This document shows, piece after piece, positions 31,164-62,745 of a stretch of 64,000 nt of DNA. Numbering within the stretch: the stretch's first letter is position 1; each line of letters starts with the position of its first letter. The DNA is from Kineosporia babensis. Its GTDB lineage: Bacteria > Actinomycetota > Actinomycetes > Actinomycetales > Kineosporiaceae. The stretch is from NCBI RefSeq assembly GCF_021129305.1, contig NZ_JAJOMB010000002.1, forward strand, positions 124,001-188,000, read 5' to 3'. A program made the translations under genes and the position numbers. The notes beneath the pieces are model-generated. The model saw only the letters and a list, made by a program, of their open reading frames with translations. It was not told the origin of the DNA and did not search any database.

Positions 31164-31177
31164 TGAACGAGCGTTCA
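31164..31177. promoter_or_regulatory. Perfect dyad TGAACGAGCGTTCA
   Basis: Perfect 6-bp arms with two-base spacer, 41 to 54 bp upstream of the short-tailed kinase start, so in promoter position for that gene. It overlaps a further GTTCA/TGAAC pair on its left. A repressor site is plausible. Confidence 0.5.
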
Positions 31178-31529: not shown

Positions 31530-33164
31530 GTGATGACGGTGGAACGCTGGACAGGGCACGAAGCGTGGGCTTTGCGTCGGGCTCTGAGAATGACGGTGGT
31601 GGGATTTGCCGAATACCTAGGTGTCGGCACCCGCACCGTGAGCAAGTGGGAGGCACGCGGGGCTGACATCGAGCCGATGCCCGAGCTGCAGGCGGTGCTG
31701 GACACCGCCCTGGCCCGGGCCGACCGCGCAAGTGCCGAGCGGTTCCGGTTGCTGATCCAGGCGGGAACGGCGGCCCGGGCAGCTGCGGGCCGCAGGCGTG
31801 GTTCGGCGGAGAAGCCGGCCTCGGCTCCGGTGGCATCGGCGGCTCCGATGTCCCCGGTGGTCCGGCCGGCGCCCATGCCTGGGCGCTCCGTACGGGCCGC
31901 GCGAGCGGCTGCGGTCTCGGCCGAACCGGCGGCCCGGGTGGCCCGTACCTCGGTACGGGACCGCACGGTCCCGCCCAGCCGGTTGCGAGCGCGCCGGCCA
32001 CCCGGTCAGCCGGGTCCGGATCTACAGGCCGTCGGTGGCTCCGGCGGTCCGGTGGGCCCGGCCCCTCAGCCGGGCGCAACACCTGATTGGAGTACCGATC
32101 CGCTCCTGCAGCTCCAGGCCCGGACGGTGCCCGAGGGCGGGGCCCCGACGGTCTCGCCCACCCTGGCCTGTGCCCCTCCTGAGGCCCTGGCCGATGCCTG
32201 GGTCCGGGCCCGGGCCCACACGCCGGAACCGCCGGGCGGTCATCCGGCGGTCGGCCGCAGCGATGTCGAGGCGGTGCAGGAGACCGTCTCGTTCTTCAGC
32301 CGCGTCGATCACCGCCGCGGTGGCGGGCACGCCCGCACGGCCGTGCTGCAGTACCTCACCTCGGACGTGTCCGGATTCCTGCACGGACGCTTCACCGACG
32401 ATGCCCTCCGGCGCCAGATGTTCGCGGTCGCCGGGGAGCTCGCCTGCCTGGCCGGGTGGATGTCGTACGACGACGCCGAGCACGCCACCGCTCAGTGGGC
32501 CGGGTCGATCGCAGTGAAACTGGCAGCGGAGGCCGGCGACGCCCCGCTGACCGGTTTCGCACTGCGGGCGATGTCCCGGCAGGTGCTCGACCTGGGACAG
32601 CCCGATCGCTCCCGGGACCTGGCCGCAGCCGCGGTCAGCGGGGCGCGCTACCAGCTGGCCACCCCGCGTGAGCGGGCTCTGTTGTCGATGGGGCAGGCCC
32701 GGGCCCTGGCGGTGGCCGGGGACCGGCAGGCGGCCATGGTGGCGCTGAAACAGGCCGAGTCCGAACTGGCTGCGGCCTCTTCGGCGGACGCCGAACCGGA
32801 CCGGGTGTTCTTCGTCAGTGAGGCGTCCCTGGCCCATCAGTCCGGTTGCGTGCTGCGCGACCTCGGAGACCTGCGCGGCGCGCTGGAGGCCTTCGAACGC
32901 TCGGTGCAGAACCGGCAGCGGTCCAAGTTCCCGAGAGCACATGCGATCACCCTCGGTGACCTCGGTGACGTGCAGGCCCGGCTGGGCCGGCACGACGATG
33001 CCGTGGCCACCTGGTCGCAGGCGCTGGATGCGATGTCGGGCGTGCGCTCGGCCCGGACCCGCGCCATAGCCCGTCGCATCCGGGTGATGACGGCGAGCAA
33101 ACCGGTCAGGGTGGCGGGCTCGGAAGAGCTCGCCGCCCGGGTGGAGCACTACCTGGCCGGATAA
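31530..33164 (+). CDS. XRE-type HTH regulator with TPR-like C-terminal region
   Basis: About 544 residues from GTG 31530 (ATG 31533 is immediately next; GGGGG upstream). The N-terminal helix-turn-helix VERWTGHEAWALRRALRMTVVGFAEYLGVGTRTVSKWEARGADIEP is the common actinomycete family with the WEARG motif. A long Pro/Ala/Arg-rich linker (about 75-235) precedes a helical region with TPR features (for example GALEAFERSVQNR, GDVQARLGRHDDAVATWSQALD) that probably senses a ligand or peptide. A paralogue with nearly the same HTH lies at 47572-48786. A hairpin follows its stop. The target genes are not known; the upstream dyads hint at autoregulation. Confidence 0.87.
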   Translation: MMTVERWTGHEAWALRRALRMTVVGFAEYLGVGTRTVSKWEARGADIEPMPELQAVLDTALARADRASAERFRLLIQAGTAARAAAGRRRGSAEKPASAPVASAAPMSPVVRPAPMPGRSVRAARAAAVSAEPAARVARTSVRDRTVPPSRLRARRPPGQPGPDLQAVGGSGGPVGPAPQPGATPDWSTDPLLQLQARTVPEGGAPTVSPTLACAPPEALADAWVRARAHTPEPPGGHPAVGRSDVEAVQETVSFFSRVDHRRGGGHARTAVLQYLTSDVSGFLHGRFTDDALRRQMFAVAGELACLAGWMSYDDAEHATAQWAGSIAVKLAAEAGDAPLTGFALRAMSRQVLDLGQPDRSRDLAAAAVSGARYQLATPRERALLSMGQARALAVAGDRQAAMVALKQAESELAAASSADAEPDRVFFVSEASLAHQSGCVLRDLGDLRGALEAFERSVQNRQRSKFPRAHAITLGDLGDVQARLGRHDDAVATWSQALDAMSGVRSARTRAIARRIRVMTASKPVRVAGSEELAARVEHYLAG

Positions 33165-54334: not shown

Positions 54335-55714
54335 ATGAACGTGGAGCCAAGAAGTCCACTGCCCGCCGGCGAGGTCTGGGAACGCCTCGACATGCGTCGT
54401 GCGCTCGCGGCCCGGGACCTCGGCACGGTGTTCCGGTTGCTGCAGAAGCACGGCACGTCGCAGCGCACCATCGCGGCCCTCACCGGGATGTCCTCGTCCG
54501 AGGTGTACGAGGTGCTGCGGGGCCGCCGGGTGATGGCGTACGAGGTGCTCTGCCGGGTGGCCGACGGCTTCGGCGTCCCCCGCGGATACCTCGGCCTCGC
54601 CTACGACAACGACACCGCCTCCTGGCTGGACCAGAACCTGGTGCCGGCCCAGACCCGCACCGACCACGAGGACGACGCCCGGGGACACGCGCTGCTGGCC
54701 TACGCGGCGGAAGTGACCGTGGGGACGGCCGGTGAGCTGTCCTCGGAATGGTCCACCGTCCCGTCCGCCGCCACCCCCTTGCCCGGGCAGGTCGGCCCGG
54801 AAGACGTCGAGCAGGCCGAGGCGGTCACTGCGCAGCTGCGCCACCTCGACTACCGCTTCGGCGGCGGGGCCTGCCGCGACGCGGTCTCGGCGCACGCCCG
54901 CTGGGTGGACAAGCTCTGTGATCTGCCCAGCCGCCCGGCCACCGGGACCCGACTGCGGGTGGCGGCCGCCGACGTCCACAATCTGGCCGGCTGGACCGCG
55001 TTCGACGTGGGCCTCTACAACGTGGCCGGGCGCCACCTCGCGCTCGCTCTGGACTTCGCCCGGCAGGCCAAGGTGCCGTCGCTGACGGCCAACGTGCTCT
55101 ACCGGGCCGGGCGGGTCTACCTGCACCGCAAGCGGGTCAGCGAGGCACTGCGGTTCTTCCAGCTGGGTCAGCTGGCCGCGCAGGACTCCGGCTCGCGCCG
55201 CACGGTGGCGATGCTGTGCGCCAACATCGCCTGGACGTACGCCGAGATGGGCGACGAGGCCCAGGCGATCACCCACCTGAACCGGGCCGCCGACGAGTTC
55301 TCCCGGGCCGAGGACGCCGACAGCGAGCCGTGGGTGCAGTTCTTCCACGAGCTGGACGTGATGGCGCTGGAGGGGATGACCCGGCTGGCCATGGCCCGGA
55401 CCAACGAGGTCTACGCCACCCCGGCCCGGCAGGCACTGGAGCGCAGCGTGGCCGAGCGCACCGACAAGATGGCCCGCAGCCTGGCCTTCGAGCAGGGGGC
55501 CCTGGCCACGGCCTGTCTGCTCACCCACGACAGCCAGGCCGCGCTGGAGTTCGGCGAGCTGGCCCTGGACCAGGCCCACCGGTTGCGTTCGCGCCGGGTG
55601 ACCGACCGGCTGGCTCCGCTGCAGGAGCTGGCCCTGGACTGCCCGGACCGGGGAGCGCGCGGCGACGAGGTGCGCGACCTGGGCCGGCGGATAGAGCAGG
55701 TACTGCTGCCGTGA
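54335..55714 (+). CDS. XRE-type regulator with TPR-like region
   Basis: 459 residues from ATG 54335 (AGGAG seven bases upstream). N-terminal XRE domain: VFRLLQKHGTSQRTIAALTGMSSSEVYEVLRGRRVMAYEVLCRVADGFGVPRGYLGLAY (about 32-90). The rest is helical with repeated TPR patterns (NVAGRHLALALDFARQAKVPSLTANVLYRAGRVYLHRKRVSEALRFFQLGQLA starts near residue 229). It should bind DNA as repressor or activator and sense a ligand through the TPR part. Its stop overlaps the start of an APH-like kinase gene (GTGA), and 40 bp after that comes the MoxR gene, so it may regulate that system. Confidence 0.87.
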   Translation: MNVEPRSPLPAGEVWERLDMRRALAARDLGTVFRLLQKHGTSQRTIAALTGMSSSEVYEVLRGRRVMAYEVLCRVADGFGVPRGYLGLAYDNDTASWLDQNLVPAQTRTDHEDDARGHALLAYAAEVTVGTAGELSSEWSTVPSAATPLPGQVGPEDVEQAEAVTAQLRHLDYRFGGGACRDAVSAHARWVDKLCDLPSRPATGTRLRVAAADVHNLAGWTAFDVGLYNVAGRHLALALDFARQAKVPSLTANVLYRAGRVYLHRKRVSEALRFFQLGQLAAQDSGSRRTVAMLCANIAWTYAEMGDEAQAITHLNRAADEFSRAEDADSEPWVQFFHELDVMALEGMTRLAMARTNEVYATPARQALERSVAERTDKMARSLAFEQGALATACLLTHDSQAALEFGELALDQAHRLRSRRVTDRLAPLQELALDCPDRGARGDEVRDLGRRIEQVLLP

Positions 55715-56757: not shown

Positions 56758-56796
56758 TCCCCAAGACTGTCGGAGGGCGTTGATAACGTCCGCTGT

Positions 56797-57966
56797 GTGA
56801 CTGGGAACCAGACGGCGGGCAGTGCGCCCCGGCAGGTCGATCCGCCGGAGCACCGGTATGCCGCCGAGCTGCAGTTCCTGGCCGCTTATGACGACGGCGC
56901 CCGGCCTCCGGGGTGGTTGCTCACCCCGCGGGCCGTGGTGACCTTCGTGGTCGGCAGCGACGAGCGCCCATTGGTGTTGCCTGCGGGCACTGCGGCGCCC
57001 GAGGGAGTGCCGCCGCAGCTGGCGATCTCGGAAAAGTTCGTCGGGGAGCGGGCTCTGGTCGAGCGCTGCGTGGTCACGCTGGCCGGCGAGCGCGGCCTGC
57101 TGCTGGTCGGGGAACCGGGTACGGCCAAATCCATGCTGTCCGAGCTGCTCTCGGCCGCGGTGTGCGGTACCAGCGCTCTGGTGGTGCAGGGCACCGCCGG
57201 TACCACCGAGGATCAGCTGCGCTACGGCTGGAACTATGCGGCGCTGCTGGCCCAGGGTCCTACCCGTGGCGCGCTGGTTCCTTCACCGGTGATGAGCGCG
57301 ATGTCGGCCGGTGCGGTGGCGCGGGTCGAGGAGGTCACCCGCTGCCTGCCCGAGGTGCAGGACTCGCTCGTGAGTATCCTGTCCGACCGGCGGATCGCGG
57401 TTCCGGAGCTCTCCGGTGAGGACTCGGCGGTGCCCGCTGCCCCCGGCTTCTGCCTGATCGCCACCGCCAACCTGCGCGACCGCGGGGTTTCCGAGATGTC
57501 GGCCGCGTTGAAGCGGCGGTTCAACTTCGAGCAGGTACACCCGATCGCCGACATCGAGCTGGAGACCGCATTGGTACGGCGCCAGGCCGCGGCGGTGCTG
57601 GAGCGGGTCCATGCGCCCTTCGCCGTGGACGATGCGGTGCTCGAGGTCCTGGTCACCGCCTTCCGCGACCTGCGCACCGGGAGCACGGCCGAGGGCTGGG
57701 AGGTGGAGCGCCCGTCCACGGTGATGAGCACGGCCGAGGCCGTTTCGGTGGCCGCGGCGCTGGGCCTGGCCTCGGCGTACTTCCCGGCCGGGCACGATGC
57801 GCTGGCTCTGTTGCCGGGGCACTTGCTCGGGGTGGTGCGTAAGGACGACCCGGCCGACGCTGCGCGCCTGCTGGGCTATTGGGACGGTGCGGTGCGGCGT
57901 CGGGCCGAGCAGGGTGGCCAGTTGTGGCGCCAGGCCTGGGAACTGCGCGAGCAGCTGGAACTCTGA
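56797..57966 (+). CDS. MoxR-family AAA+ ATPase (YehL-like)
   Basis: 389 residues from GTG 56797. Walker A GEPGTAKS (105-112), Walker B region AGAVARVEEVTR (171-182, with Glu-Glu as acidic pair), sensor 1 CLIATANLRDRG (219-230), arginine-finger region KRRFNFE. The N-terminal ~75 residues are specific to this subgroup. MoxR ATPases act with VWA-domain proteins as chaperones for assembling or remodelling metal enzymes and surface proteins. The next gene encodes a DUF5682-VWA fusion, so gene order equals the E. coli yehL-yehM-yehP pattern. It follows the APH-like gene by 39 bp. Confidence 0.9.
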   Translation: MTGNQTAGSAPRQVDPPEHRYAAELQFLAAYDDGARPPGWLLTPRAVVTFVVGSDERPLVLPAGTAAPEGVPPQLAISEKFVGERALVERCVVTLAGERGLLLVGEPGTAKSMLSELLSAAVCGTSALVVQGTAGTTEDQLRYGWNYAALLAQGPTRGALVPSPVMSAMSAGAVARVEEVTRCLPEVQDSLVSILSDRRIAVPELSGEDSAVPAAPGFCLIATANLRDRGVSEMSAALKRRFNFEQVHPIADIELETALVRRQAAAVLERVHAPFAVDDAVLEVLVTAFRDLRTGSTAEGWEVERPSTVMSTAEAVSVAAALGLASAYFPAGHDALALLPGHLLGVVRKDDPADAARLLGYWDGAVRRRAEQGGQLWRQAWELREQLEL

Positions 57967-57973
57967 GGGTGCC

Positions 57974-60900
57974 ATGTCTCGTTCCTGGCCGGAGCCGCAG
58001 GCCGCGGTTGCCGAGTTGGTTTCTGCTCAGCCCTTTCTGATCGGAGTGCGGCATCATTCGCCTGCCCTGGCGGCCGTGATTCCGGCGCTGCTCGATGCCC
58101 TGCAACCAGACGCGCTGCTGATCGAGTTGCCGCCCCAGTTCGCCGATTGGCTGCCTTGGCTGGGGCATCCGCGCACGGTTGCCCCGGTGGCGCTGGCCGG
58201 GTCGGGGGAGCCGTTGCCGTTCTACCCGTTTGCGGACTTCTCGCCGGAACTGGTGGCCATCCGCTGGGCGGTCCAGCGCGGTGTGGAGATTGTGCCGTGT
58301 GACCTTCCTTTGGGCGATGCGGGATGGGCCGAGCGTGGCCCGAGGAGGCGGAAGAGCTTTGGCTCTCCTTTCTCCCAGGCGCTACGGAAAGCTCAGACCG
58401 GCCGGGACGGTGACGACCTGTGGGATCGGGTGGTCGAGGCGCCGGCTGCGGGCTGCACTCCGGAGCAGGTGCGGCGGGCGGCACTGGCGGTGGGTTGGGC
58501 GATGCGGGCCGATGAGGCTGCCGACGGCCGGGTTGCCGGGGTGGACCTGCGGCGGGAAGCGCAGATGCGGGCGGTCGTCCAGGATTATCGGCAGCAGCAT
58601 CATGAGGCACGGATCGTATTGCTGGTCGGTGCATTTCATGCTCCGGCGTTGATTGATTCTGCAACGGTGGACCCGGCTCGGGAATACAGGGTCGCGGCGC
58701 TGGACGAGCCGCGGCCGGTCCTTCAGGTGGTCACCAGCCTGGTTCCTTATGCAGATCCGTTGCTGGACAGTCGTTCTGGCTATCCGGCGGGCATTCGAGA
58801 CCCACGGTGGCAGGCGGAGACGGTTAAGGCGGGCGGTGATCCGGTCAAGCTTTCGGCTGCGGCGGCTCGGGTGGCCGTGGAGGTCTGTGCGGCGGTCCGG
58901 GAAGGCGGGCATCCGGCTGGGCCGGGAGAGGCTCGCGAAGTTGTCCGGCTGACCGAGGATCTCGCTCGGTTGCGGGGACTGCCGGCTCCCGGGCGCAGCG
59001 AGATCGTCGAGGCACTGACCACGGTGCTGGCGCAGGGCGAGACGCTGGGGCGGGGGCGAGTGGTGGCTCAGGCGATGGAGCAGGTGCTGATCGGTGAGCG
59101 TCGGGGTCGTCTGGCGCCGGGCACTCCCCGGTCGGGGCTCGGGCCTTCGCTGGAGGCCCTGCTCAAGGAGCTGAAGTTACCGAATCCGGATGCGCCGCTG
59201 CGTAAAGAGCTCCGGCTGGATCCGCTGCGCAGTCCGCTGGACCGCCGCCGCGAGGTCACTCTGCAGCGTATTCAGGCCTGCGAGATCTACTACGCCCTGG
59301 CCGCCGAGGTTCAAGGGGTTGGCGCGGCGGCGGCCCTGACCACGCACTGGCTCGCCGCCTGGACGCCCACCTGTGCGGCGCTCACCGAGGTCGCCGGTCT
59401 GCTCGGCGTGACTCTGGAGCAGGCGTCCGAGGGCACCCTTCGGCGTCAGCGGGAACGTGAGCGGGCCGATGGCGGAAGTACCGCCCAGCAGGTGCTCGAC
59501 GGATTGCTGGCAGCCGCCGAATGTGGCCTGTCCGCGCTGGCTTCCGACCGGCTGGACGATGTGATCCGGGTGTTGCCGACCACGGCCACCCTGCCCGAGC
59601 TGCTCACCGGCCTCGATCTGCTCAGCCGGCTGGAACAGGGTACCGTGCCCGGCATGGTCGGTCACCCGATCAGCGCTCTGGGCTCGGTCGTGGAGGAGGT
59701 GCACACCGCGGCGATTCGCCAGGTCGACGGGCTGGCCGGTTCCACCGATCTGGCCGATGCCCGGGCCCTGCTGGCTCTGGTGGTCCGCCACGACCAGATC
59801 GGCGCCGGGCTGCGGCTGGATGCAGCGCTGAAACGGCTTGCGGGTGAGGGCAGTCCGCTGATGCGTGGGGCCGCAGCGGCGGTGCGGGTGCTGCTCGGGC
59901 TGGACGAGGCGGCCGAGCTCGGTGACCGGGCGGCGGCGTGGCTCGACCTGGATGCCCCGGGTGAGATCACGGCCCGGTTGTCCGGCCTGCTCATCGTGGC
60001 CGGCCCGCTCCTGGAGGCCGGTGGCGACGTGCTGGATCCGTTGCTGGCCCGGTTGGAGCAGATGCCCGAGACGCTGTTCCTTCGGCGGTTGCCGGCCGTG
60101 CGGGGCGGCTTCGACGTGCTCACCCCGGCCGCCCGCAGCCGGTTGCTCACGGCGGTGGAAGCCCGGCTGGAAGATCGGCTCGACCTGGGCGTATCAACCG
60201 ATCCGGGGTTGCTCGGGCGCTGGGCCCAGGCCGATGCGCACGCCCTGGAGGTTCTGCGGGAACGCGGTCTGGCCAGTTCGGTCGCCCTTGCTCCGGCCGA
60301 TCGCTGGCGGCTGGTGCTCGGTCAGAAACAGGAGCAGTTGCCCGCCCAGGCCAAGCGGTACGGCGTGGCGTTGGACGAGCTCTACGGGCAGGACCGGGGC
60401 GAGGGAGCGGGCGGCGATCTGCGGGGGCCCGGTGCCGGAGACGGATCCGGGTATCCGGGCGTGCGGGAATGGTCCGAAGAGCTCACTCACCTGTTCGGCG
60501 CCACCGTGCGGGAAGAGGTGCTGGCCGCCGCTGCGTCCGGGGGCCGGGTGGATGCCGCCCTGGCGATTGACCCGGCTCTGGCCAGGCCTTCGGTCGAGCT
60601 GCTGACCAGTGTGCTTTCGCTGGTGGGGGCCTTGCCGGAGCGAACGGTGGCTCGGTTGCGCCCCCTGGTGGCCAAGGTGGTCGCCGACCTGACTCAAGAC
60701 CTCGCTCGCACCCTGACTCCGGCTCTGACCAGTCTGACCTCACCTCGGCCCACACGTCGTCCGGGCGGTCCGATCGACCTGCACCGCACCATCCGGGCCA
60801 ACCTCCGGACGGTACGCCACGGCCCCGACGGCACGCTCACGGTGATTCCCGAGCACCCGGTGTTCAAGACCCGGAGCAAACGCACCACCGATTGGCGGGT

Positions 60901-61384
60901 CATCCTGCTGGTCGATGTCTCCGGTTCGATGGAGGCTTCCACGGTCTGGTCGGCCATCACCGCTGCCGTGCTTTCCGGTGTGCCCGCGCTGACCACGCAT
61001 ATGCTGGCGTTCTCCACCGACGTCATCGATCTCACCGGCGTGGTCAGCGATCCGCTGTCACTGCTGCTGGAAGTCGATGTCGGCGGCGGAACTTCGATCG
61101 CCACCGGGCTGGCGGCCGCCCGTGAACTGGTCACGGTGCCCAGCCGCACGATGGTCGTGGTGGTGAGCGACTTCGAGGAGGGCGGGGCGATCGGCCCGTT
61201 GCTGGCCCAGGTGCGTCTGCTGGTGGATGCGGGGGTGCGGGTGCTGGGTTGCGCCGGCCTGGATGAGACGGGCGCGGCGCGGTACAGCGTCTCGGTGGCG
61301 AGTCAGCTGGTGGGGGCCGGCATGCCGGTCGCCGCGCTGAGCCCGTTGGAGCTGGCGCGCTGGGTCGGGGAGCAGGTCCGGTGA
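57974..61384 (+). CDS. DUF5682-VWA fusion protein (YehM+YehP-like)
   Basis: About 1136 residues from ATG 57974. The N-terminal DUF5682 part begins LIGVRHHSPALAAVIPALLDALQPDALLIELPP (from about residue 22) and goes on FYPFADFSPELVAIRWAVQRGVEIVPCDLP; a helical middle part (about 350-950) follows. The C-terminal 160 residues are a CoxE-like VWA domain with MIDAS VILLVDVSGSMEAS (Asp near 980) and later VSDFEEGG. In E. coli and many bacteria YehM (DUF5682) and YehP (VWA) are separate; here they are one polypeptide without intervening stop or frameshift. It should be the partner of the MoxR ATPase. No membrane helix. Confidence 0.88.
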   Translation: MSRSWPEPQAAVAELVSAQPFLIGVRHHSPALAAVIPALLDALQPDALLIELPPQFADWLPWLGHPRTVAPVALAGSGEPLPFYPFADFSPELVAIRWAVQRGVEIVPCDLPLGDAGWAERGPRRRKSFGSPFSQALRKAQTGRDGDDLWDRVVEAPAAGCTPEQVRRAALAVGWAMRADEAADGRVAGVDLRREAQMRAVVQDYRQQHHEARIVLLVGAFHAPALIDSATVDPAREYRVAALDEPRPVLQVVTSLVPYADPLLDSRSGYPAGIRDPRWQAETVKAGGDPVKLSAAAARVAVEVCAAVREGGHPAGPGEAREVVRLTEDLARLRGLPAPGRSEIVEALTTVLAQGETLGRGRVVAQAMEQVLIGERRGRLAPGTPRSGLGPSLEALLKELKLPNPDAPLRKELRLDPLRSPLDRRREVTLQRIQACEIYYALAAEVQGVGAAAALTTHWLAAWTPTCAALTEVAGLLGVTLEQASEGTLRRQRERERADGGSTAQQVLDGLLAAAECGLSALASDRLDDVIRVLPTTATLPELLTGLDLLSRLEQGTVPGMVGHPISALGSVVEEVHTAAIRQVDGLAGSTDLADARALLALVVRHDQIGAGLRLDAALKRLAGEGSPLMRGAAAAVRVLLGLDEAAELGDRAAAWLDLDAPGEITARLSGLLIVAGPLLEAGGDVLDPLLARLEQMPETLFLRRLPAVRGGFDVLTPAARSRLLTAVEARLEDRLDLGVSTDPGLLGRWAQADAHALEVLRERGLASSVALAPADRWRLVLGQKQEQLPAQAKRYGVALDELYGQDRGEGAGGDLRGPGAGDGSGYPGVREWSEELTHLFGATVREEVLAAAASGGRVDAALAIDPALARPSVELLTSVLSLVGALPERTVARLRPLVAKVVADLTQDLARTLTPALTSLTSPRPTRRPGGPIDLHRTIRANLRTVRHGPDGTLTVIPEHPVFKTRSKRTTDWRVILLVDVSGSMEASTVWSAITAAVLSGVPALTTHMLAFSTDVIDLTGVVSDPLSLLLEVDVGGGTSIATGLAAARELVTVPSRTMVVVVSDFEEGGAIGPLLAQVRLLVDAGVRVLGCAGLDETGAARYSVSVASQLVGAGMPVAALSPLELARWVGEQVR

Positions 61385-62745
61385 ACCTGCCCTGGAAACC
61401 GGCGGAACGGGCTGCTGCTCAGCTGGTTTGGGACGCGGCCGGGCAGTTGCTCGATTGCGGGCTGGCAGGAGCCGGGGCTGCGCTTCAGGGGCAGCTGCTG
61501 GCCGGAGTGCACCAGGCTCGGTTGCGTGCGTTGCATCGGCTGGCCTCGGCGACGACCAGGGTGGCCAGCGGGATTCGGGCGGCGCAGGCCGATGACGGGG
61601 ACTTCTCGCTGCCGTCGCTCACGGCCGATCTGCTGGAGGTGCTGTCGGTTGCCCATGCCGTGATCAGCGGGCGCGGCGATCCGGGGGAGTGGCGGGGGAC
61701 GGCGCGGACGGTTTACCAGGGTGTGGGGGATCTGCGGCTGGCCGGGTTGTGCATGGAGCCGGTGGTGAGTTCGGCGGGGTACGCGGGGGTGGTGGTCTGG
61801 CTGATTGATGCGGACGGACGGCTGTGGTCGGTTTCGGACGTCAAGCCGGGTGGGGCGGAACGCGTGCCGGGGTCGGCGGCCGGTGCCGTGGCGGTCGGGG
61901 AGACCGGGCTTTCGCACCGGGAACTGTCGCGCGCGGGGATGATCATGACCGCTGCTACTGCCAACAATGATGGACGTCTCGGGTCGGGTCACGCGGTCGG
62001 GGCGGTTCGTGCGGCAGGGCTCGCCTGGACGCAACCGCAGCTCGTGAGGCGGTTCGGTGTAGTGAACGCCGGTACTGCCCGGGCGAACGTTCCTCGTCTG
62101 CTGGATCTCACGGTCTGTGGCCACGAGCGCGCTGCCGTCCTGGCGGTGGACCGGGCGGGTACCGGGGTTCGTCTCGTTGCGCCGCCCGGGCCGGTGCCGC
62201 AGGACAACCTGCGGGTGCTGGCGGGCAAGGCCGGTCTGCGATTCCTGGCGGTCGCCCGGCCGCGGTCCGACGACGTCAACGCCTCGGCTCGATTCCTCGG
62301 GGTGCCAGGCACGATGGAGCTGGTCTCGGTCGGTGGTGCGGAGCTACGGCTGCCGGCGGTGCTGAACGGGCACGCCGACCTGGGGTTCGATCGGCTGAAC
62401 GCGCGCTCGCTGCGGCCCTCCGGCCCGGTGCCGGAGTATCCGCAGGTGAGTGATGTCACCGATCCGCTGCTCGGGTACCGGCGCCGGCTGGAGCGGGTGG
62501 TCTCCGGAGGCAGGCGCACGCTTTCCGTTCCGGGGGTGCCCCAAGAGGTCCGGTCGGAAGCTGCGCGCCTGCGCAGTGAGCAGCTGACCACCGCGGCCAC
62601 CCTGCTGGAGAACCTGCTGCAGGCGGCTCATCCGCACCGACGGGATGAGTTCGGCCGGCTCGCCGGTCCGGCCGATGACGCTCTGGCGAAGGCCTGGTTG
62701 GCCGCCGCTACTTATCGGCGGGCCCTGCTCGGAGCGCCCTTGTGA
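61381..62745 (+). CDS. Unrecognised protein in the yehQ-like position
   Basis: 454 residues from GTG 61381, overlapping the upstream stop (GTGA). The N-terminal 100 residues are helical, then VYQGVGDLRLAGLCMEPVVSSAGYAGVVVWLIDADGRLWSVSDVKPGG opens a beta-rich region with GLSHRELSRAGMIMTAATANNDGRLGSG. The C-terminal third is mixed. In yehLMPQ-type operons the fourth gene carries a SWIM zinc finger (CxCx..CxH); no such Cys/His cluster is visible here, so it is either a different protein or a SWIM-less relative. No signal peptide or membrane segment. Cotranslated with the fusion protein, so it is likely part of the complex. Confidence 0.78.
   Translation: MNLPWKPAERAAAQLVWDAAGQLLDCGLAGAGAALQGQLLAGVHQARLRALHRLASATTRVASGIRAAQADDGDFSLPSLTADLLEVLSVAHAVISGRGDPGEWRGTARTVYQGVGDLRLAGLCMEPVVSSAGYAGVVVWLIDADGRLWSVSDVKPGGAERVPGSAAGAVAVGETGLSHRELSRAGMIMTAATANNDGRLGSGHAVGAVRAAGLAWTQPQLVRRFGVVNAGTARANVPRLLDLTVCGHERAAVLAVDRAGTGVRLVAPPGPVPQDNLRVLAGKAGLRFLAVARPRSDDVNASARFLGVPGTMELVSVGGAELRLPAVLNGHADLGFDRLNARSLRPSGPVPEYPQVSDVTDPLLGYRRRLERVVSGGRRTLSVPGVPQEVRSEAARLRSEQLTTAATLLENLLQAAHPHRRDEFGRLAGPADDALAKAWLAAATYRRALLGAPL

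Follow-up and report, generated by a model that had tools for sequence, protein, structure and literature searches.

The gene set treated here is known from Escherichia coli K-12, where the annotated record lists yehI, yehK, yehL, yehM, yehP and yehQ in a row. We found no function for YehL-M-P-Q in the open-licence PMC texts searched, which mention neither DUF5682 nor 'SWIM zinc finger' together with MoxR. RavA and NorQ are placed in MoxR subfamilies other than that of YehL in PMC3893208. According to PMC8533742, a Deinococcus DUF4132 gene is strongly upregulated on DdrO depletion, its role being left open by the authors, who also note that E. coli MolR has been described as part of the LexA regulon. 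We analyzed a related locus in a stretch of 64,000 nucleotides from Kineosporia babensis (contig NZ_JAJOMB010000002.1, positions 124,001 to 188,000; referred to throughout as the window). Three genes at positions 56797–62745, all on the + strand, encode a MoxR ATPase, a 1136-residue protein joining DUF5682 to a CoxE-like VWA domain, and a coupled 454-residue third protein, all three as described in a first-pass annotation made from the sequence alone (Table 1). Comparison with relatives shows that the ancestor of this locus was a five-gene cassette, of which the first two genes and the SWIM module of the last have since been lost.

Both parts of the fusion protein match their Pfam profiles at full length, the outcome anticipated by the first-pass annotation. 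Residues 36–881 cover positions 1–727 of the 727 in DUF5682 (E = 6.7e-176) and residues 910–1131 cover positions 1–222 of the 222 in VWA_CoxE (E = 3.3e-59); the VWA is thus part of the fused chain in the window and not a separate YehP-like protein. The residues of the metal-ion-dependent adhesion site (MIDAS) are intact (DVSGS at 981, GGGTS at 1037 and SDFEEGG at 1065). The comparison panel consisted of the window genome (G000), other genomes of the genus (G001–G005) and genomes of the same family (G006–G012). A single frame spans DUF5682 and VWA in all seven of the loci aligned (window, G001–G005 and G006), and a frame or sequencing error joining two genes, which the first-pass annotation had named among the findings that would refute its proposal that the two domains are locked in one subunit of a YehL/M/P-type set, is thereby ruled out. 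The proposal itself is supported: one open frame holds both domains in 24 or more of the 394 class genomes sampled, the window's included, and in 80/80 of the retained relatives among GTDB genomes (the best 80 of 242 confirmed), although these were picked for likeness to the fused query and the figure is not a frequency. The 80 named loci fall under 25 labels, five loci being labelled by family or record title rather than genus, and include Streptomyces (47/80), Micromonospora, Nonomuraea, Saccharothrix, Actinomyces, Corynebacterium, Planctomycetota and others; with so many from Streptomyces, label counts are a fairer measure than locus counts. Judged by this distribution and by the MoxR tree described below, the fusion is old and widespread, one clade and not a one-off. 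Locus L075 (G266:C26) is a broken fused cassette, with its genes scattered over many frames.

Gene clustering over the 80 named loci, with genes called by our own script, recovered five same-strand families in 20–24 of the 25 labels. In order they encode a DUF4132 protein of about 290 residues (70 of the 80 loci), a protein of about 1650 residues (75), MoxR (76), the DUF5682::VWA fusion (78) and a SWIM/OB protein (72); the next recurring family around fused loci reaches only 3 labels. In the Streptomyces atratus record NZ_CP108284 these are annotated 'DUF4132 domain-containing protein', 'DNA-binding protein', 'AAA family ATPase', 'DUF5682 family protein' (the label that the fusion carries in the public Streptomyces record) and 'hypothetical protein'. 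The counterpart of the small DUF4132 protein in YehI is the C-terminal part (E = 1e-9). The large protein of about 1650–1680 residues has no detectable similarity to YehI or to anything else tested, and family hits to the version of about 1680 residues are all below threshold.

Within G000–G006 the large gene is whole in 5/7 genomes and the small DUF4132 gene is present in 5/7, while the SWIM module is found in 6/7; G003 holds a two-piece remnant of the large gene and retains the SWIM module. Nothing in the window genome matches the large gene, the fused-type DUF4132 gene or the SWIM module. G002 and G004 carry the DUF4132 and large genes between an aminoglycoside phosphotransferase-family (APH) kinase gene and MoxR, and in G001 an NsdA-like gene is followed by APH, DUF4132 and the large gene, at which the contig ends, and another contig of this genome begins within MoxR. 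The 39-bp spacer between APH and MoxR in the window is best read as a deletion scar, going by gene maps (L016, L017 and L202), flanking alignments and whole-genome searches for both genes. Of the traits of the fused five-gene subfamily, the window has the one-frame DUF5682/VWA protein and a MoxR in the fused clade but not all five genes.

The third protein had been put forward as a novel protein standing in for YehQ and lacking a visible SWIM motif. The motif is indeed absent from the window, a loss unique to the window genome among these orthologues; the protein is not novel, being, on the evidence of orthologues, DNA alignment and homology to YehQ, a YehQ-type SWIM protein minus its N-terminal SWIM zinc finger. 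Its six orthologues in G001–G006 are 578–728 amino acids long and all contain C-x-C-x5-C-x-H. They share similar start residues, then C-D/G-C-L-L-A-P-x-C-L-H, a variable linker and a C part, to which the whole window protein aligns at 55–77% identity. In the window the first four codons directly precede the Trp found at position 140–269 in the six orthologues; the deletion after codon 4 is in frame and leaves the gene 135–264 codons shorter than theirs, and DNA alignment with three of them shows one clean gap at the SWIM region. The SWIM ligands are invariant in 26/26 orthologues of alignment A7 (from which L066 was left out). SWIM motif and C part stand in one frame in 76/80 named loci; the motif is in a different frame from the C part in L093 and L143, and L109 and L127 lie at contig ends. 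In a first set of 23 fused loci the module was present in 22, the exception being L071. No other locus with the C part but without the SWIM motif was found in that set or among the 80. At L071 (11800–12661) the third gene is missing from its usual place, and the next gene is methyltransferase-like by eye. Not every genome of the family has the locus: the third protein finds no match in the six same-family genomes G007–G012.

No Pfam family matches the third protein above the cut-off and a PDB sequence search returned no match; profile comparison of its family with a set of five YehQ-type proteins that contains E. coli YehQ aligned 378 columns (97.4% probability, E = 9.4e-12). An unrelated enzyme, the other possibility raised beforehand, is ruled out on these results. 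Structure prediction, also proposed there, gave a model (mean predicted local distance difference test score, pLDDT, 88.5; predicted template-modelling score, pTM, 0.78) with a helical front, two beta-beta-beta-alpha-beta-beta units and a helical end. The two units are predicted to be tandem OB folds at about residues 113–211 and 239–333. The best PDB matches by Foldseek were a HIN domain (E = 4.4e-4) and POT1 (E = 1.4e-3), which we take to be tandem OB proteins, and Ten1 was also matched.

The MoxR protein carries Walker A (GEPGTAKS, residues 105–112), a Walker B region (VARVEEVTR, from 174), ATANLRDRG from 222 and ALKRRF from 237. Alignment with E. coli YehL gives 46% identity with the invariant motifs in common, and in a tree it is placed among YehL-type rows, though long branches meet there. 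All fused loci stand on one side of a branch in the MoxR tree (108 fused and 8 split rows; Shimodaira–Hasegawa-like approximate likelihood ratio test, SH-aLRT, 98), a tree built by a quick method, with long branches among the split rows; L074 and all MoxR matches no longer than 250 residues were excluded. The nearest row to the window is G001 (SH-aLRT 89 for the pair).

The N-terminal part of DUF5682 has a conserved set of residues suggestive of an enzyme. In 15 diverse N-termini (alignment A10, covering fused and unfused proteins, E. coli YehM and the divergent third set described below) H-H-x-P, E, an R-E pair and G-x-x-H are invariant (15/15), with E 23–24 residues after H-H, as spaced in the window, and G-x-x-H 28 residues after R. 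The other eight of the 23 candidate proteins were left out of A10 because the search for motifs failed at an anchor; in all of them (8/8) the two His, the Glu, the R-E pair and the final His are kept, and A replaces P30 in 4/8. H27, H28, E51, R194, E195 and H222 are thus identical in 23/23 DUF5682 proteins, and in 29/29 fused proteins as well. TIKI enzymes use two His and two Glu together with Arg, according to PMC6254334. In TraB/GumN proteins of E. coli and plasmid records, used because 60 actinomycete genomes searched for each family contained neither ChaN nor TraB, we find G-x-x-H, E after 26, R, and then G-x-x-H 24 residues on. A Pfam scan of the 15 proteins in A10 matched ChaN in two (best E = 0.0043) and TraB in one (E = 0.019), both of the TIKI superfamily; five other families were matched in one member each, one of them at an equal E of 0.0043. 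Against the TraB profile the DUF5682 N-terminus scores 29.0 and full-length DUF5682, which contains the domain, 31.5, compared with no more than 20.6 for eight profiles lacking the domain and 15.6 or less for 60 column shuffles. The model of the whole fusion (mean pLDDT 75.7, pTM 0.64) has a strand-helix-strand order around the conserved residues. We think it fairly probable, from motif and profile likeness, that the DUF5682 N-terminus is a TIKI-type domain.

Several other sets of this kind were encountered. The window genome holds a complete unfused set (L012:5448-15311, on G000:C56) with a YehI-type DUF4132 protein, MoxR, DUF5682, VWA and SWIM proteins, and a third, divergent set (L013:5164-11779, on G000:C1) in the order 447-residue protein of no recognized kind, VWA, MoxR and 934-residue DUF5682-like protein. 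A DUF5682 match as low-scoring as that of L013 occurs in all six genus genomes searched, with the same neighbors in G004. The unfused set of G005 (L201) has two tandem proteins of about 1115 residues and similar start upstream of MoxR. Another subtype (L079:2647-10715 and L080:7017-14510) has a SWIM-motif protein (CSCPSRKxPCKH) and a protein of about 510–540 residues adjoining MoxR, DUF5682 and VWA.

Taken as a whole, we hold it to be somewhat better than an even proposition that the window encodes a reduced member of a fused YehI-L-M-P-Q subfamily, in which a MoxR-driven MIDAS adaptor is fused to a putative TIKI/TraB-type hydrolase. The MoxR ring would use the MIDAS of the fused VWA as substrate adaptor and through it act on, or position, the DUF5682 part joined to it, in which a helical-repeat scaffold probably carries an N-terminal hydrolase domain of the TIKI/TraB type. 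Since a single chain holds both the VWA and the putative enzyme, capture and cleavage or remodelling would be obligatorily coupled. In the full cassette the machine may be directed by the SWIM zinc finger and two OB folds to a target that is bound to nucleic acid or resembles it, and the DUF4132 reports, together with the SWIM and OB folds, hint at nucleic-acid stress. With only the OB part left in the window, the core might work with a narrower sensor or have lost that input.

A number of results weigh against this interpretation. Direct comparison with the TraB profile by hhalign is weak (probability 9.5%, 44 columns), the PDB sequence-profile search finds no TIKI protein and chance hits only, the whole fusion model has no PDB match at E ≤ 0.001 by Foldseek, and no TIKI chain is among the 50 Foldseek matches listed, which are mostly VWA and helical-repeat chains. 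Only one PDB match of the third protein reaches E ≤ 0.001, and since the top query TM-scores are 0.15–0.24 the OB assignment is a fold-level one for each barrel. The SWIM deletion is known from one genome only. Finally, the window branches of MoxR and the third protein are faster than those of flanking genes, a pattern compatible with partial decay and with altered function alike: the ratio of nonsynonymous rates (dN) of the window and G001 to four other species averages 1.5 for MoxR, 1.17 for the fusion and 1.38 for the third protein, and 0.83–1.11 for three flanking control genes.

Decay in progress, in which the cassette stopped working once the large genes and SWIM were gone and its three surviving genes are relics not yet broken, is the strongest of the competing explanations, and we give it a real but clearly lesser chance. 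Three separate parts are gone from the window genome, the two faster branches fit, the end branch of the window in the MoxR tree is 0.13 versus 0.041 in the nearest row, the large gene of G003 is likewise reduced to two pieces, and G266, another genome of the class, carries a plainly broken copy. However, there is no stop or frameshift across the 1979 codons of the three genes, the start/stop overlap is retained (the GTG of the third protein overlaps the stop codon of the fusion in GTGA), the catalytic motifs are intact, and the ratio of nonsynonymous to synonymous rates against G001 is 0.09 for MoxR, 0.12 for the fusion and 0.17 for the third protein. The three remaining frames are intact and, by these ratios, under purifying selection, and the rates speak against simple decay yet allow relaxed or shifted constraint.

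Alternatively, the reduced core might borrow the SWIM and DUF4132 proteins of the unfused set L012. That set has its own SWIM and DUF4132 genes in the window genome, and among the other five genus genomes an unfused set was found only in G005. G005, however, has the unfused set plus a fused locus with SWIM module, large gene and small gene all retained, so that unfused and complete fused loci do not exclude each other; the set types also differ strongly, the unfused DUF5682 matching the fused profile only at E = 4e-25, and we regard sharing as unlikely. An assembly or sequencing artefact, in which the deletions are collapses in a draft assembly (89 contigs, from the one genome of the species in the comparison), is more improbable still: the SWIM junction is in frame with start codon and stop overlap preserved, the missing parts match nothing elsewhere in the assembly (99.27% completeness), and the locus would have to have suffered two independent collapses. 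A MoxR-VWA conflict system of the VMAP, iSTAND, FtsH or beta-propeller kind is hardly credible, since beyond a MoxR-VWA pair in an actinomycete and a weak bpMoxR match (22.2 bits, below the cut-off of 27) no such component is among the Pfam matches of the locus and PADLOC matches are at E = 0.003 or weaker.

The interpretation of the window as a reduced fused cassette with a hydrolase-bearing adaptor also admits a bolder version, which we consider doubtful: that MoxR and the single-chain MIDAS adaptor/TIKI-type hydrolase are a natural minimal autonomous ATP-driven protease or unfoldase, working without zinc finger, 1650-residue protein or DUF4132. If so, SWIM, the 1650-residue protein and DUF4132 would be targeting or control modules and not the engine, and every set of the Yeh family would be an AAA+-driven TIKI enzyme under the direction of SWIM/OB proteins that bind nucleic acids. 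The window offers a natural deletion separating the core (MoxR and DUF5682::VWA) from the SWIM, DUF4132 and large-protein parts. The exactly five conserved genes of the fused subfamily, the putative TIKI site and the predicted tandem OB folds together make the widespread YehL-M-P-Q set testable.

Table 1. Features of the window discussed in the text.
Feature	Position	Strand	Remarks
MoxR/YehL-type AAA+ ATPase	56797–57966	+	389 amino acids, GTG start; AAA_5 profile, E = 6.2e-37
DUF5682::VWA_CoxE fusion	57974–61384	+	1136 amino acids; full-length Pfam matches to both families
Putative TIKI/TraB-like N-terminal part of DUF5682	58052–58639	+	H27, H28, E51, R194, E195, H222
YehQ/SWIM-family protein without SWIM module	61381–62745	+	454 amino acids, GTG start; orthologues, YehQ homology, model
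In-frame SWIM deletion junction (MNLP/WKPAE)	61389–61393	.	DNA and protein alignments, retained Trp position
39-bp gap between APH and MoxR	56758–56796	.	DUF4132 and ~1680-residue genes here in G002 and G004
XRE protein of the XRE-APH pair	54335–55714		TPR regulator of the NsdA family; the APH-family kinase gene next to it overlaps its stop

The XRE-APH pair just upstream had been suggested to control the locus. The XRE protein matches NCBIfam NsdA_fam_reg at 257 bits (cut-off 75), and the pair lies upstream in G001–G004, with extra cassette genes after APH in G001, G002 and G004. Control by the pair is not borne out: DUF4132 and the large gene intervene in G002 and G004, and families outside the cassette occur in at most 3 labels. 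XRE-APH abuts MoxR in the window because the intervening genes were apparently deleted, and if the spacer is a deletion scar, this closeness says nothing about control. A scan for SOS boxes likewise gave no support for SOS control. Upstream of DUF4132 genes the one exact pattern tried, GAAC-N4-GTTC, occurs in 0/26 and 1/72 cases (expected 0.1 and 0.4). It is found around the MoxR start in 3/37 and 5/78 loci (expected 0.1 and 0.2); all eight sites are inside the MoxR gene, in frame over E-L-A-F or E-L-E-F codons, and are thus coding sequence with no sign of control. Elsewhere in the window, a single GAACGAGCGTTC palindrome at 31165, presumably of the actinobacterial SOS-box-like type, is situated about 0.4 kb upstream of a gene at 31590 that looks to encode a helix-turn-helix protein.

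A mobile island was considered and rejected: there is no tRNA in the window, GC content is 0.70–0.72 over 54–64 kb, and the flanks are syntenic within the genus. As to carriage by phages, 0/600 pattern matches in viral contigs were confirmed, and one phage record of 50,697 is a partial match to the fusion. This is MT835988.1 (9392–12824), a 14-kb 'Bacteriophage sp.' record from human faeces that matches in two pieces amounting to 52% of the fusion. In PHROGs, the matches to the DUF5682 and VWA regions are phrog_30700 and phrog_31592.

RavA-ViaA and NorQ-NorD are not known to have DUF5682, SWIM or DUF4132 partners. The likeness of the window locus to these chaperone pairs lies in a MoxR ATPase with a VWA-domain partner (PMC9976466 and PMC10585395). 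With the MoxR-vWA ternary conflict systems, reported from multicellular prokaryotes including actinobacteria, it shares the MoxR and VWA core, but their third component is VMAP, iSTAND, FtsH or a beta-propeller, none of which was found at the window locus, and the terms SWIM, YehL and DUF4132 are absent from the main text of that report (PMC7159879). The likeness to the E. coli yehI-yehQ locus extends to gene order, with MoxR, DUF5682, CoxE-like VWA and a YehQ-type protein in the same succession; upstream of them both E. coli and the full fused cassette have a DUF4132 gene. The two differ in that E. coli divides between YehM and YehP what is one protein in the window, and in that the window locus is without DUF4132 and SWIM; the fused family has a protein of about 1650 residues without detectable similarity to YehI. 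Compared with the fused cassette of Streptomyces, Micromonospora, Saccharothrix, Planctomycetota and others, the window has lost genes 1 and 2 plus the SWIM module of gene 5, and has in common with it MoxR, the fused DUF5682::VWA protein and a homologous third gene.

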